From Calothrix sp. HK-06 (lineage in GTDB: Bacteria; Cyanobacteriota; Cyanobacteriia; Cyanobacteriales; Nostocaceae): 34,549 nucleotides of DNA. Position numbers and translations under genes: made by a program. The DNA lies in assembly GCF_001904745.1 (NCBI RefSeq), contig NZ_MRCD01000094.1, positions 1 through 34,549 of the forward strand. The letters run 5' to 3'. The notes under the pieces are model-generated. The model saw only the letters and a list, made by a program, of their open reading frames with translations, ran no database searches and was not told the origin of the DNA. Position 1 is the stretch's first letter; every line of letters begins with the position of its first letter. Below are positions 7,701 to 10,641 of the stretch, one piece after another.

Positions 7701-7865
7701 ACAAGGCGCCCACTTGGTATTGCCGTAGTAGGGGGACTAGTATTTTCACAGATACTAACTTTATATTTAACACCAGTATATTACCTATACATGGAAGCAT
7801 TCCGAAACTTCCTATCAAAAAGAAAAACTAGGCAAAGGATTGCAACGGATGTAACGGATAGTTAA
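4761..7865 (+). CDS. RND efflux permease (HAE1/MdtC-like), second copy
   Basis: Second proton-driven RND pump subunit, also 1034 residues, colinear with the first and clearly a tandem paralogue. It keeps the start block (MNLSEIFIRRPVMTTL), the TM4 proton-relay pair D401-D402 (GFVVDDAVVVLENI) and the TM10 block GIVKKNGIMMVDFA with K921/K922, so it should be active. It probably uses the upstream adaptor, because no second adaptor is present. It lies 145 bases after the first pump, beyond a repeat-rich spacer. The last residues (ATDVTDS) are encoded by the AACGGATGTAACGGATA repeat, so the repeat appears to have supplied a new C-terminus and stop. Confidence 0.95.
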   Translation: MNLSEIFIRRPVMTTLTMVGIVIFGLMSYMLLPISDLPSIDFPTIQVTASLPGATPDTMAASVATPLEKQFSSIAGIDSFNSTSSLGSTNITLQFNLDRNITQAAKDVQAAINAAASELPAGLPRLPTYRKVNPSAAPILYLYLYSKTLPISTVDEYAEITVGQPISMVNGVAQVQVFGSKQYAVRVQVDPKELASRGIGIDQVQTALQQANVSLPTGILSGKYKSYIVNADGQLTNAAAYRKLIVSYKNGAAVRLEDVGQVIDSIQNINSSNAYNGNPSVVLAIQRQPNTNTVAIVDAIKNLMPTLREQVPQAIEMGIFYDRSESIRASVDDVKFTLLLTIALVVMVIFIFLRNISATVIPSLALPIALIGTFAVMYLSGYSLDNLSLMALTLSVGFVVDDAVVVLENIVRYQEMGETPLEAALKGSREIGFTIVSMTLSLVAVFIPIIFMGGILGKLFHEFAVTISVAILVSGFVSLSLTPMLCSRFLTSHHNNSNRFYRAFESGFDLVQKVYASTLKTVLKYHVLTLITSFVILVLTCYLATVVQKGFIPTQDTGQITANTKAAQDISYEAMLKHQQAVIDIIRKDPNVKAVNSTVGAAGPNGSVNSGRIIIRLKPFSQRRLNSDQIIQKLRPKVSKIPGLRVLMQSPPAIAIGGQQTNAVYQYTLQSLDSSLLAQYVPKLEEKMKTLRGLQDVNSTLELSSPRIQVNIDRNKASTLGVTASQIESALASAFSSGQVSLIYTPTDQFQVILEVLPQFQRDISAISSLYIRSSSGNLVPLSAVANFSQSVTPLSLSHQGEIPSATISYNLAPGTSLDEANQQITKLAASILPSTITGGFQGGAKAFQQSTQSLGLLLIVSIAVIYLILGILYEDFIHPLTILSGLPSAGFGAILTLILFDVELNVYSFIGIILLIGIVKKNGIMMVDFAIEAQRNEAKSPYDAIYQACLVRFRPIMMTTMAALMGTLPIALGLGAGSETRRPLGIAVVGGLVFSQILTLYLTPVYYLYMEAFRNFLSKRKTRQRIATDVTDS
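7844..7860. repeat. Third copy of the AACGGATGTAACGGATA repeat
   Basis: These 17 bases are identical to the left arm of the inverted repeat at 4614-4631. They encode the final residues of the second RND pump just before its TAG stop. Homologous recombination between the copies could delete or duplicate the intervening pump gene. Confidence 0.8.
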
Positions 7866-7876
7866 TTTATAAATGT

Positions 7877-7899
7877 GGGACGGGCATCCTGCCTGTCCT
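7877..7899. repeat. Dispersed hairpin repeat (GGGCATCC/GCCTGTCC type)
   Basis: Contains GGACGGGCA, then TCC, then TGCCTGTCC, a 9-bp stem with one mismatch. It belongs to the same loose family as elements at 12962, 19199, 29896 and 33678 in this window. It lies between the second pump stop and the PstS remnant. Confidence 0.65.
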
Positions 7900-7917
7900 T
7901 TCAAGCACTGATTAATA

Positions 7918-8121
7918 ATGCGTAACCGCAAAAATATACTAAATATCGTCGTAGCAATAATAATTATATTATTGGCTTGCACAGGTATATTATCCTTAAT
8001 GTCAATTCTTGTACATCCCGTTTCCTTAACAGGAGCAGGCGCCTCGTTTCCTCAAGTAATTTATTCTACGTGGTCTCGTGATGGCAACACAATTATGAAT
8101 CATACTATATACCACAGCTGA
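7918..8121 (+). pseudogene. Truncated PstS-like phosphate-binding protein (N-terminal remnant)
   Basis: The 67-residue ORF has a charged start and a hydrophobic segment (about 8-33), like a signal sequence. Residues 37-52 (LTGAGASFPQVIYSTW) match the highly conserved N-terminus of mature PstS/SphX phosphate-binding proteins of the Pst ABC transporter. Homology stops soon after residue 52. Intact family members have over 300 residues. The reading frame ends at 8121, overlapping the 3' end of the convergent GUN4-domain gene by 17 bases. No pstC, pstA or pstB is nearby. It is best read as the broken end of a lost pstS, perhaps cut off when the neighbouring module arrived. A short exported peptide is a less likely alternative. 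Confidence 0.6.
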
Positions 8122-9049
8122 GAATTCTAGACATATAGGCGCGTCGATCACCACTACCCTGCCAATTTACGAACCAAGGGAACTGCCCTTCTGGAGTACT
8201 AAAAGAATATTCAGGTATATACATATAGTAAAACTCACCCTTCTCATTTAACTTTCCCCAGCCAACTTGAATCATAAATTTATCAAGATTTTTGTTTACA
8301 TCACTTGATTGGAAAATGCGACTCTGAGTACTAAAACCAAAGCGTTTTTTGGAGTATTTTGTCCAAAGATTATCTATAGCACGTAAATCTTCGCATGGAA
8401 AATTATTATAGTCAGCTGCTTGAAGACTACGTTTTTCCCATTGACCAGCCACTCCCCACATCCTGTCCGCAGTTTCCACATCAGCGTCTTTCCATCTTCC
8501 TTGTGATAGTAAATTTTGTAGTTGAATGTAACGTGGGTTAACCGACTCCGTTTTATAAAACCCTGCAAAACTAGCTAACCCAATTAGAAAAATAGCTCCA
8601 CCAGTTAACCAATAAAGTTTTTTCGATTGAGATTTTGCTTCAGTTGATTGATTAGGAGAATTAGTTCTGAATTCAGGAATAGCATTAGGTGTTGGGGAGG
8701 TTGTTTGCTCTGTAGAGTTTGAATTTGAATAATTCTGTTCATACTCTAGGTTACAATTAAATTTTTCTGCGATTTCTTTTAAAAGAGATTCACGTCGTCC
8801 TCCCTTAAAAATAGGTTCTAGTTCTTTAACACAAAGCTGACAAAGAGCTTTTGTATTTCCTACATCATTTAAATGATTAATTAAATTTATGGCAAAGCTC
8901 TCATCTGTAGGGTCATTTATAAACCCAAGTTGCCTGTAGTAAGTAATTCCAATTCTTATACATAGTGCTTCTCGTGTTCTTACTTTTGAGCTAATTAGTA
9001 ATAGGTCTACTAACGTCGCTATGTCATCTGAGTTTAATTCTTGTGGCAT
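8105..9049 (-). CDS. Membrane-anchored GUN4-domain protein with N-terminal adaptor (EAD-like) domain
   Basis: The 314-residue protein has three parts. Residues 6-100 are a helical adaptor domain (EALCIRIGI...LGF...ALCQLC..LE..FKGGR) clearly homologous to the C-terminus of the adjacent CHAT protease. Residues 101-143 are a Ser/Thr/Asn-rich linker, followed by one membrane segment (about 145-165). Residues 173-314 are a GUN4 domain, with LLSQGRWKDAD, FPCEDLRAIDNLW, RFGFSTQSRIFQS and VGWG. GUN4 proteins bind porphyrins and activate Mg-chelatase, but stand-alone Gun4 lacks the anchor and adaptor, so this is not the housekeeping gun4. It starts 17 bases after the CHAT gene stop, so the two are co-transcribed. 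Orientation puts the adaptor on one side of the membrane and GUN4 on the other. The role, perhaps effector or tetrapyrrole sensor, is inference. Confidence 0.85.
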   Translation of the reverse strand: MPQELNSDDIATLVDLLLISSKVRTREALCIRIGITYYRQLGFINDPTDESFAINLINHLNDVGNTKALCQLCVKELEPIFKGGRRESLLKEIAEKFNCNLEYEQNYSNSNSTEQTTSPTPNAIPEFRTNSPNQSTEAKSQSKKLYWLTGGAIFLIGLASFAGFYKTESVNPRYIQLQNLLSQGRWKDADVETADRMWGVAGQWEKRSLQAADYNNFPCEDLRAIDNLWTKYSKKRFGFSTQSRIFQSSDVNKNLDKFMIQVGWGKLNEKGEFYYMYIPEYSFSTPEGQFPWFVNWQGSGDRRAYMSRILSCGI

Positions 9050-9066
9050 ATTTATAATTCACCAAA

Positions 9067-9999
9067 CTACTTACAATTTAGTTTTAATTTAAGATTTTCC
9101 AAATCCGCCGAGTATCTACCCCTTTTAAAAACAACTTCTAGTTCCTTACAGATTTTACAAAGAGCTTGTTTGTCATCTATACTATCCAAATAATTAATTA
9201 GCTCTAAGGCAAAGTCAGTGTCAGTAGATTGTCTTAAAAATCCCAATTTATTTGGCTCAATTCCAATTTTTAGGCATAATGCTTTTCGTGCCGAATACTC
9301 TGCACGTCCACTGCGTATTAAGAGTTCCGTAAGTATTTCTATATAATTGTTTACTTCCTGAGATGAATCTAACTTAGATTCGTTTTGAACTAGAAGGTGG
9401 TCTTCAGGTAAATTTGTCCTAGCCATCGTCTCACTAATATTTTGGTTCCGTATTAATCTTGGAGTTAGTTGTTCAGGAATACCTGCTAATCGAATTGCAG
9501 CACAACCAAATTTATAGGCAAATTCAACAGGTTTCCCTGCTCCTAAAGCATCGTAAAAGCCAACAGCGAATTCAATTGCTGCTGTATCTCCGATAGCCTT
9601 TTTCATACCAATTACATAGTTAATGTGTTGAGAAATTGCTTCGGCTTGCACTTGTGAGTAACAACCGTTAAGGACAACACACTCAACCTGATTAGCAAAT
9701 AAATCAAATAGTCCCGCTAGAGCTTCGCCATCGACTAGCTTTGCCGAACCTGTTTCATCTTCAAATACTAGACCTTCTGAATCCACCCCATGTCCAGAAA
9801 AATGGACAATAGTCGGATTAAAATCCAGCATCGCGCGCTGAATATCCCTCGGTCGCACTGCCCACTTCTGCTTTAAGACAAACTGCTGACGTTGTTTTGC
9901 TCGCTCCAACCCAGCATCAATTTCGCGCACCTCCTCATCTAAACGCAGCGGTGTTGTGCCTTTAGGATTTGCTGCCAAAATTAAGATTGTTTGCTCCAT
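9067..9999 (-). CDS. CHAT-domain caspase-like protease with C-terminal adaptor (EAD-like) domain
   Basis: The 310-residue protein begins with TILILAANPKGTTPLRLDEE, the typical start of bacterial CHAT proteases. The catalytic dyad is visible as H70 in VHFSGHG and C113 in VVLNGCYS, so peptidase activity is expected. The CHAT domain spans about 1-180. After a short polar linker, residues 218-310 form a helical domain (ARKALCLKIGI...KLGF...FALELINYLD...ALCKICKELEVVFKRGR) matching the N-terminus of the downstream GUN4 protein. Such homotypic effector-associated domains are known to tether proteases to partners in cyanobacterial conflict systems; the assignment to that class is by resemblance. An RHH regulator gene ends 31 bases upstream, giving the order RHH, CHAT, GUN4. 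Confidence 0.88.
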   Translation of the reverse strand: MEQTILILAANPKGTTPLRLDEEVREIDAGLERAKQRQQFVLKQKWAVRPRDIQRAMLDFNPTIVHFSGHGVDSEGLVFEDETGSAKLVDGEALAGLFDLFANQVECVVLNGCYSQVQAEAISQHINYVIGMKKAIGDTAAIEFAVGFYDALGAGKPVEFAYKFGCAAIRLAGIPEQLTPRLIRNQNISETMARTNLPEDHLLVQNESKLDSSQEVNNYIEILTELLIRSGRAEYSARKALCLKIGIEPNKLGFLRQSTDTDFALELINYLDSIDDKQALCKICKELEVVFKRGRYSADLENLKLKLNCK

Positions 10000-10030
10000 T
10001 TCCTTACTCCACTAATCGTTTGCCGTTTTC

Positions 10031-10225
10031 TCACTCAGTTTTACTCATAGCTAGACCATCCGTAACAACAGTCTCTTGCTTTTTATCCGATCTATTTAAA
10101 GAACAGTGTTGTTTTTCTAACCATTGTTCAATTAACTCATTGACTACTTGACTCATCTTCAAACCCCGAAGAGCGCAAGTCGCATGAAATCGTTTCTTGA
10201 GATCGTCTGTAATACTGATATGCAT
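10031..10225 (-). CDS. Small ribbon-helix-helix (CopG/ParD-type) protein
   Basis: The predicted protein has 64 residues. The first strand is HISIT, followed by helix A (DDLKKRFHATCALRG) and helix B (LKMSQVVNELIEQWLEKQ), the pattern of ribbon-helix-helix DNA-binding proteins and antitoxins, with a polar tail. An ATG at 10252 would add MSFLLLLSL, which does not fit the fold, so the internal ATG at 10225 is preferred. No clear Shine-Dalgarno sequence supports either start. It is the first gene of the RHH-CHAT-GUN4 unit and is a likely autorepressor or antidote for it. No ParE/RelE-type toxin lies next to it, which makes the CHAT protein the natural partner. Confidence 0.72.
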   Translation of the reverse strand: MHISITDDLKKRFHATCALRGLKMSQVVNELIEQWLEKQHCSLNRSDKKQETVVTDGLAMSKTE

Positions 10226-10261
10226 AAGCGATAAAAGTAATAAAAATGACATTTTCTCATC

Positions 10262-10285
10262 TGTACAAAATTACAAATGTACAAA
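10262..10285. promoter_or_regulatory. Candidate operator: repeated TGTACAAA upstream of the RHH gene
   Basis: TGTACAAA occurs at 10262-10269 and again at 10278-10285, with TTACAAA between them at 10271-10277. The spacing of 8-9 bases between related units suits arrays bound by ribbon-helix-helix dimers. The array is about 40 bases upstream of the chosen RHH start and next to AT-rich TATATAAG-like sequence on the minus strand. Binding by the adjacent regulator is inference. Confidence 0.4.
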
Positions 10286-10641
10286 CTTATATAAATATAG
10301 GGGGAAGTAAAACTAACTTATGCACTTGGCTGTGTATTATGGATTAAAAAGGCGCGATACAGTTGACTGTTGAGCTTTGAGTACGCTTCGCCACTGGTAT
10401 ACACCCTTGGTCGGTGAGGTGCATAATTTAAAAAGGCGCCTATAAGTATAAAACTAAGAAGAAAGTTTATCTTTATACTTTGTTCATTATAAAACCTATC
10501 GTTGACGTATAGGTGCCAACCTTAACTTGACATTAATGGTGTCCCACCTGTCCGTCAAATACTGTATGACGCATCAATGCCCATCCTACAATGATTATTC
10601 TGGCGCATTTTTGTAATTAGAGTACTCTTACCTTTACTAAA
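10286..10641. other. Non-coding stretch with an imperfect inverted repeat
   Basis: No convincing gene is visible. TTGACGTATAGGTG (10502-10515) and CACCTGTCCGTCAA (10545-10558) form a 14-bp inverted repeat with two mismatches around a 29-base loop. One GGCGCC site lies near 10434. It could be a regulatory stem, a small RNA or repeat debris. Confidence 0.35.

Follow-up and report, generated by a model that had tools for sequence, protein, structure and literature searches.

A shared EAD-like domain links a predicted CHAT protease to a putative membrane sensor in Calothrix sp. HK-06: a candidate receptor-effector gene pair

In the EAD-coupled conflict systems, adjacent genes carry the same small domain, and one copy of this domain is reported to be always fused to a core component, namely VMAP, iSTAND, Ubl or GAP1 (PMC7159879, PMC8195603). 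NTPase cores form the center of the EAD-coupled cell-death systems known to date (PMC7159879), and these systems are generally assumed to detect invaders intracellularly. Here, a 34,549-nucleotide stretch of the genome of Calothrix sp. HK-06 (contig NZ_MRCD01000094.1, referred to as the window) was analyzed, in which a gene for a predicted CHAT protease (gene 1) is followed by a gene for a putative membrane protein with a GUN4-like domain (gene 2), and both products carry one copy of a domain of about 97 residues that had been overlooked in the initial annotation and is named EADx here. The locus was similar to the EAD-coupled systems in the small non-enzymatic domain shared by adjacent genes, the caspase-superfamily effector, the occurrence in multicellular prokaryotes, and the presence of GUN4, which is listed among the domains of these systems (PMC7159879, PMC8195603). 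It differed in that the partner copy was carried by a variable sensor with a predicted membrane anchor, not by a core component, and in that no Pfam EAD family was matched above its cut-off. The shared-adaptor logic, GUN4 in EAD systems, and tandems of adaptor-lectin and adaptor-effector genes have already been described (PMC7159879, PMC8195603). Searches of the text of open-licence papers gave no description of an EAD pair whose second copy is carried by a membrane-anchored sensor, with repeated exchange of sensors and without an NTPase partner, and the source data of Kaur et al. may hold single examples of EADx-type receptor-CHAT pairs.

The unit consisted of three minus-strand open reading frames (ORFs) separated by intergenic gaps of 31 and 17 bases, in agreement with the initial annotation. 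Its genes were recovered as reported there for 8105..10285; the end of that interval lies 33 bases past the first ATG of the small gene. The small gene (10031..10252) encodes a 73-amino acid ribbon-helix-helix (RHH) regulator with weak RHH-type matches, ParG being above the cut-off (24.6 bits, cut-off 21.4) and RHH_10 below it (24.9 bits, cut-off 27). Gene 1 (9067..9999; 310 amino acids, supported by its ORF, Pfam and protein comparison) matched the Pfam CHAT family over amino acids 12-158 (40.3 bits, cut-off 24; domain at 9487..9993) and carried EADx at its C-terminus. The His-Cys dyad, previously reported as intact, was indeed found at H70 (codon 9790-9792) and C113 (codon 9661-9663), and in the alignment of 46 gene-1 proteins, seven of which are of TIR or trypsin types, the dyad columns held H in 38 and C in 42 proteins. 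With both the CHAT profile match and the dyad, gene 1 has the sequence marks of a CHAT protease, and its closest solved CHAT match was the CHAT-domain protein 8tl0 (phmmer, E 1.8e-14). Gene 2 (8105..9049; 314 amino acids, from its ORF, Pfam and hydropathy) encodes EADx, a predicted single membrane helix at amino acids 145-163 (8561..8617) and a GUN4-like domain at amino acids 169-305 (8135..8545), which scored 104.6 bits in Pfam (cut-off 29.2). The GUN4 domain and the hydrophobic stretch proposed earlier as a membrane anchor were therefore both recovered. No NTPase gene was part of the three-gene unit.

The domain common to both proteins was revealed by direct comparison. The C-terminus of gene 1 (amino acids 214-309; EADx copy 1, 9073..9372) matched the N-terminus of gene 2 (amino acids 3-99; EADx copy 2, 8750..9049) with 42% identity (BLASTP, E 7e-19). 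No Pfam family, EAD models included, reached its cut-off for EADx in either window protein. A two-row profile search of the whole genome of the strain (10 Mb, 243 contigs, up to E 1) gave no copies beyond the two in the window, and no EADx-bearing NTPase was found in it. By sequence, the pair has the layout of an EAD-type system, namely a copy of a small domain in both adjacent genes, one of them joined to an enzymatic effector. Fusion of an EADx copy to a core component (VMAP, iSTAND, GAP1 or Ubl) was not present in the window, where gene 2 matched GUN4 only.

Some EADx members matched Pfam EAD8 (PF19961) below the cut-off over the same stretch, with a best E of 8.6e-5. When 84 EADx copies were compared with 15 EAD8 copies by hhalign, a score of 28.5 was obtained over 93 columns (E 2.2e-5, probability 52), and the best of 60 column-shuffled controls scored 11.8. 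The gene-2 copies alone gave E 1.4e-5, and the gene-1 copies alone gave E 2.9e-4 with a probability of 18. EADx as a form of EAD1 was rejected, the profile match being only 15.5 (E 0.005, probability 2.9; E 0.18 with a smaller profile). These comparisons suggested that EADx is a divergent, remote relative of EAD8. An EAD8-linked locus with a trypsin-nSTAND1 pair has been described (PMC10907252), and some EADx loci likewise pair a trypsin with NACHT. The window locus differs from it by having CHAT in place of trypsin, a putative membrane sensor in place of the NTPase, and an EADx that falls below the EAD8 cut-off.

To describe the gene pair beyond the window, the architecture was compiled for 56 stretches, the window included. 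In 55 of these, EADx occurred 103 times in total, at a C-terminus in 48 cases, at an N-terminus in 55 and never internally; three of the N-terminal matches (L164, the first of L161 and the first of L171) are the remaining ends of truncated gene 1s. In all of the 42 two-copy loci, a gene 1 with C-terminal EADx was followed by a same-strand gene 2 with N-terminal EADx, so that the gene order is conserved in relatives of the window locus; the pairing accepted same-strand partners only, and no stretch had EADx copies on opposite strands. The open frames of the two genes ranged from an overlap of 107 bases to a distance of 533 bases. This count excludes single-copy loci and those that are broken or truncated by the end of a contig, and includes L042 and L099 as pairs despite weak gene-2 EADx matches. 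The gene-1 alignment excludes the broken or cut gene 1s of L161, L164, L166, L171 and L176, and the gene-2 alignment excludes L094, L156, L166, L168 and L170. Among 46 gene-1 proteins, the effector was CHAT in 38, TIR in four and trypsin-like in three. Among 49 gene-2 proteins, GUN4 and CHASE2 were each found in seven, CVNH and NACHT each in three, and TPR, iSTAND and FGE each in one, with Ricin_B above the cut-off in one gene 2 and below it in another, and PAN below the cut-off. Effector and sensor thus both vary with the adaptor and its polarity constant, since the domain counts differ while every two-copy locus keeps the order.

Several single loci extended this picture. In L158 (G407), one CHAT-EADx gene was followed by two tandem gene-2 receptors, of which the second had a sub-cut-off Ricin_B match and the first appeared CVNH-like by eye. 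L099, L042 and L043, which lie outside the family, had a longer CHAT-EADx protein and a large gene 2 with no Pfam match and a weak EADx match. In L094 (G002), an EADx ORF was followed by an in-frame stop and then an iSTAND ORF, and in L146 (G410) EADx preceded iSTAND. These two loci tie EADx to iSTAND ternary systems.

In the EADx tree rooted with EAD8, trypsin-NACHT and C14/CHAT-NACHT loci were placed near the base (supports 0.29-0.84). The two copies of one locus were sisters in L145, L172, L173, L169 and L146 (0.98-1.0) and not in L150, while around the window, where the loci are of the receptor type, the copies of gene 1 grouped largely apart from those of gene 2, whose group had a support of 0.979. 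The basal NACHT loci and the separate groups therefore hint that an NTPase-linked layout was perhaps the ancestral one, from which the receptor type would have arisen.

The sensors appeared to have been exchanged on the same kind of stalk. The EADx copy of the window gene 2 shared 79% of its residues and 84.6% of its bases with that of L142 (Westiellopsis), and the C-terminal parts of these two proteins were not recognisably related (23.5%). Compared with L161 (G432), the GUN4 domain of the window gene 2 was 57.5% identical and its linker-helix part 61.7% identical, while EADx reached 48.5%, so the L161 sensor sits on a different stalk. By these identities the window gene 2 is a mosaic of an EADx stalk and a GUN4 sensor of different kin. 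In the tree of 39 gene-2 EADx copies, in which several splits are weakly supported, the seven GUN4 partners needed seven changes, which is the maximum (mean of shuffled labels, 6.6), placing GUN4 on seven separate EADx lineages as far as the tree resolves them. When 13 sensor labels were mapped, 22 changes were needed, compared with an average of 28.7 and never fewer than 24 in 2,000 shuffles; the LecA-, LamG-, propeller-, lectin- and Ig-like labels among them were assigned by eye, no profile being above its cut-off. Sensors were therefore inherited for a while and yet often changed. Such exchange on one stalk would provide a natural set of ligand-binding modules.

The topology of gene 2 was predicted from its relatives. 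A hydropathy peak of at least 1.5 was present shortly after EADx in 38 of 48 gene-2 proteins. In the 15 residues on either side of this helix, lysine and arginine summed over the 38 proteins to 114 before and 50 after it, and the net charge placed the N-terminus inside in 33 of them. The cysteine counts, which come from related proteins, showed an even number beyond the helix in 26 of the 31 single-helix proteins (zero in four) and an odd number in the EADx part in 21 of the same 31. The charge bias and the even far-side cysteines therefore fit an EADx in the reducing cytoplasm and a sensor outside, and hydropathy and charge statistics favoured gene 2 as a putative single-pass protein with the adaptor inside.

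Across the 42 loci, EADx similarity was 0.506 within and 0.395 between loci, a difference reached by none of 10,000 shuffles, and the distance matrices of gene-1 and gene-2 EADx correlated with r 0.752 (none of 5,000 shuffles), which relatedness alone could produce.

Based on the above, we proposed, with no more than moderate confidence, that the two genes form a receptor-effector module in which a membrane sensor protein and a CHAT protease are joined through EADx. Gene 2 would be a single-pass membrane protein with EADx in the cytoplasm and the exchangeable GUN4-like sensor on the far side, and gene 1 would be a caspase-like CHAT protease, soluble and docking through its C-terminal EADx on that of gene 2. 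Binding of a ligand to the sensor, or its clustering, would gather the gene-2 EADx domains and recruit CHAT proteases, which may be activated by proximity and cleave cell proteins, leading to arrest or death. The RHH gene probably autoregulates the operon. The conflict or cell-death role suggested by the initial annotation is plausible from the EAD literature (PMC7159879).

Several observations weigh against this receptor-effector module. The helix in the window protein has no more than a moderate hydropathy (1.57), and the charges on its two sides are nearly equal, with three lysines or arginines in the 15 residues before it and two in those after. The GUN4 gene 2 on a Tolypothrix plasmid (L096) had no helix after EADx and showed weak coiled-coil-type matches, and therefore GUN4 can be cytoplasmic in EADx loci. 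A cysteine pair in GUN4 was considered as a sign of an outside location and discarded as uninformative, because soluble GUN4 paralogues of the same genome share it. Some EADx loci carry a NACHT or iSTAND domain, and the kinship of EADx with EAD8 reached the hhalign probability of 52 only. In the 27 loci nearest the window, partners were hardly more similar than non-partners (0.449 and 0.442; 300 of 10,000 shuffles) and the distance matrices correlated with r 0.323 (25 of 5,000 shuffles), and 15 other gene 2s were closer to the window gene 1 EADx than its own partner was. Strong co-variation of partners near the window was accordingly rejected, the signal being nearly gone in these closest loci.

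The main rival of the receptor-effector module is a protease-substrate or protease-inhibitor pair, in which gene 2 is a membrane-bound substrate or inhibitor docked by EADx and CHAT cleavage would set one of the two parts free. The fixed pairing and the shared adaptor fit such a pair equally well, and the closest solved match of gene 1, 8tl0, is a CHAT-domain protein of the kind that acts in proteolytic cascades. The far-side domains, however, belong to ligand-binding types (CHASE2, CVNH, Ricin_B) and vary from one close stalk to another, which suits sensors better than a common substrate, so that we regarded this explanation as unlikely. A decaying or non-immune family of mobile paralogues, kept by duplication and transfer and having no present role, would account for the patchy occurrence (38 of 217 family genomes, with no match in six other genomes of the genus), for the copies with stops or cut frames, and for the copy on a mobilizable plasmid. 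In the window, both genes have intact frames and have retained the dyad and the adaptor, and all of the 42 two-copy loci keep the same order and polarity, which makes this explanation quite improbable in our view.

The initial annotation and Kaur et al. favoured a third explanation, in which GUN4 is a tetrapyrrole sensor of the photosynthetic or light state and controls the protease allosterically. GUN4 was proposed in this role in such systems (Kaur 2020, PMC7159879), the Pfam score of the window domain is far above the cut-off, one GUN4 partner has no helix, and a fused EAD1-CHAT-GUN4 protein exists. On the other side, CHASE2, CVNH and further domains take the place of GUN4 on stalks of this kind, and the window copy lacks the full LxNxLR motif. 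The Arg of this motif is needed for full porphyrin affinity of GUN4 (PMC8967248), and its Asn has been linked to bilin binding (PMC10156173). The motif was complete in the GUN4 orthologue of the same genome (L001) and in none of the 15 other aligned GUN4 domains, which comprised the window copy, six EADx-linked domains and eight paralogues of the genome; this region of the alignment contains gaps, an Arg occupies the corresponding column in the G465 copy, and locus L009 of the genome is not among the aligned domains. By sequence, the window domain thus matches the GUN4 profile and lacks the contact motif. Because this bilin- and porphyrin-contact motif is absent, and GUN4 is one of many sensors, the proposed trigger by tetrapyrrole or light was not supported, and we considered the explanation improbable. 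The Chlamydomonas GUN4 variant N219G still bound porphyrin (PMC10156173), and therefore the window domain may also do so. The exchange of sensors also suggested that GUN4-like domains may have been taken up as general sensors with no tie to the synthesis of chlorophyll. Apart from this question, the PD-T4-6 model of PADLOC matched the GUN4 domain at 8135-8545 (E 4.2e-28, model positions 309-434 of 450). PD-T4-6 is a kinase, and the match is apparently due to a GUN4-like domain at the end of the model.

The receptor-effector module was compared with further systems. The tandem genes bDLD3-NPCBM and bDLD3-PNPase place an adaptor-lectin and an adaptor-effector side by side, the lectin being the presumed sensor (PMC8195603). 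They differ in adaptor and effector, and their lectins are described as intracellular, no membrane helix being mentioned in the passage on them (PMC8195603). The TRADD-N/EACC2-caspase proteins combine a caspase module with a variable and possibly extracellular C-terminus such as CHASE2, so that caspase and variable domain form one chain (PMC8195603), whereas EADx loci encode the variable domain in a separate, adaptor-joined protein. GUN4 joined to metacaspases was listed in 2010 (PMC2853523). These cyanobacterial metacaspases also combine a caspase-type protease with GUN4, and cell-death signalling was proposed for them, but GUN4 and the C14-type protease lie in one protein and no adaptor pair is mentioned for them (PMC2853523). 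The death receptors Fas and TNFR1 share with the proposed module an outside sensor, one helix, an inside adaptor and a caspase-like effector with an adaptor (PMC8195603). The EADx system is prokaryotic, is predicted to be oriented N-in/C-out and has no intermediate adaptor protein. Animal death receptors, by comparison, are N-out/C-in. We tentatively suggest, and would not be surprised to be wrong, that the EADx pairs are a bacterial counterpart of death receptors, in which an outside sensor with an inside EAD8-like adaptor would directly recruit and activate a caspase-like or TIR effector without an NTPase, whole sensors (lectins, CHASE2, GUN4 and others) would be exchanged on an unchanging adaptor stalk, and filamentous cyanobacteria could respond to outside ligands by controlled cell death. 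If true, an outside-reading receptor that signals to a caspase-like protease by way of a common docking domain would be a bacterial parallel of the extrinsic death pathway.

The distribution of EADx was determined at several levels. Matches were found in 14 of 388 genomes of the order with the two-row profile (E 0.01), two of them very weak. With a 27-row profile, matches were found in 38 of 217 genomes of the family and in none of the six other genomes of the window's genus, and in a phylum-wide sample in four of 386 genomes, all of the same family and including the window's own genome. When genomes of named species were scanned with a single EADx stretch, 18 loci were obtained, among others from Nostoc, Brasilonema, Scytonema, Westiellopsis, Tolypothrix, Rhizonema, Plectonema, Desmonostoc and Iningainema and from one uncultured cyanobacterium. 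These genera are filamentous. Among plasmids, one record matched, from Tolypothrix sp. PCC 7910; this plasmid is mobilizable, and the two neighbouring genes on it carry the annotations CHAT and GUN4 domain protein. A viral carrier was rejected, as 37 viral-contig stretches matched a pattern and none of them encodes a relative (one scan, one query). Copies with stops or cut frames exist among the relatives.

The RHH gene was not a constant companion of the pair. It was located upstream of gene 1 in 13 of the 42 EADx loci, of which 39 extend at least 600 bases upstream. Among 30 retrieved RHH loci, the gene lay no more than about 1.5 kb from a CHAT match in 18, three of these 18 matches being weak or short. 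It is hence an optional part of the module; with only 13 of 42 loci, a fixed part was rejected, and an antitoxin gene constantly beside its toxin, as in type II toxin-antitoxin systems, was not seen. TTTGT-type repeats directly upstream of the RHH gene (10262..10286), seen by eye, may be an operator.

Another locus of the same genome, on contig C48 (L022/L178), also had an RHH gene, followed by one ORF fusing EAD1, CHAT and GUN4; the next gene starts with a second EAD1 and, by eye, has a P-loop NTPase-like region and membrane segments. By eye, TTTGT repeats were common to the stretches upstream of the window and C48 RHH genes. The C48 locus resembles the window in combining an RHH gene, CHAT, GUN4 and an adaptor pair in one gene row, and differs in the fusion of CHAT with GUN4, the EAD1 adaptor, and the NTPase-like and membrane-segment features of the partner. 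CHAT and GUN4 are joined in two ways in one genome, and therefore their functional link is supported, yet it is not specific to EADx. The coupling of CHAT with GUN4 in the initial annotation was borne out by this fusion, by the adaptor common to both window proteins, and by GUN4 in seven of 49 gene-2 homologues.

Further observations were made in the same genome and around the unit. A search with the CHAT protein (L012-L030) gave 19 matches, one of which is the EADx of gene 2 and five of which have an internal stop; others are short frames, and the partner modules differ (AAA_35 in L018, the rest by eye). Two long GUN4 proteins with a membrane helix were found, L010 on contig C4 and L011 on contig C89. 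On C89 a CHAT-AAA_35 gene lies directly after the long GUN4 gene, and on C4 about 26 kb separate the GUN4 gene from a CHAT gene. The neighbouring DUF2127 protein was used to look for an empty site within the genus, and this was discarded, since the protein had no match in the six genomes. With 40 of 264 candidates scored, the DNA matches to the same-genus genome G353 were short fragments that resembled RHH, CHAT or repeat sequence. Among the 23 G353 DNA matches listed, 14 fell on window positions 7818-7901, which cover the end of an RND-pump ORF and the bases after it, with 72-97% identity over 30-73 bases, so that this segment resembles a short dispersed repeat. It is followed by a separate stretch that resembles a palindrome, GGGACGGGCATCCTGCCTGTCC.

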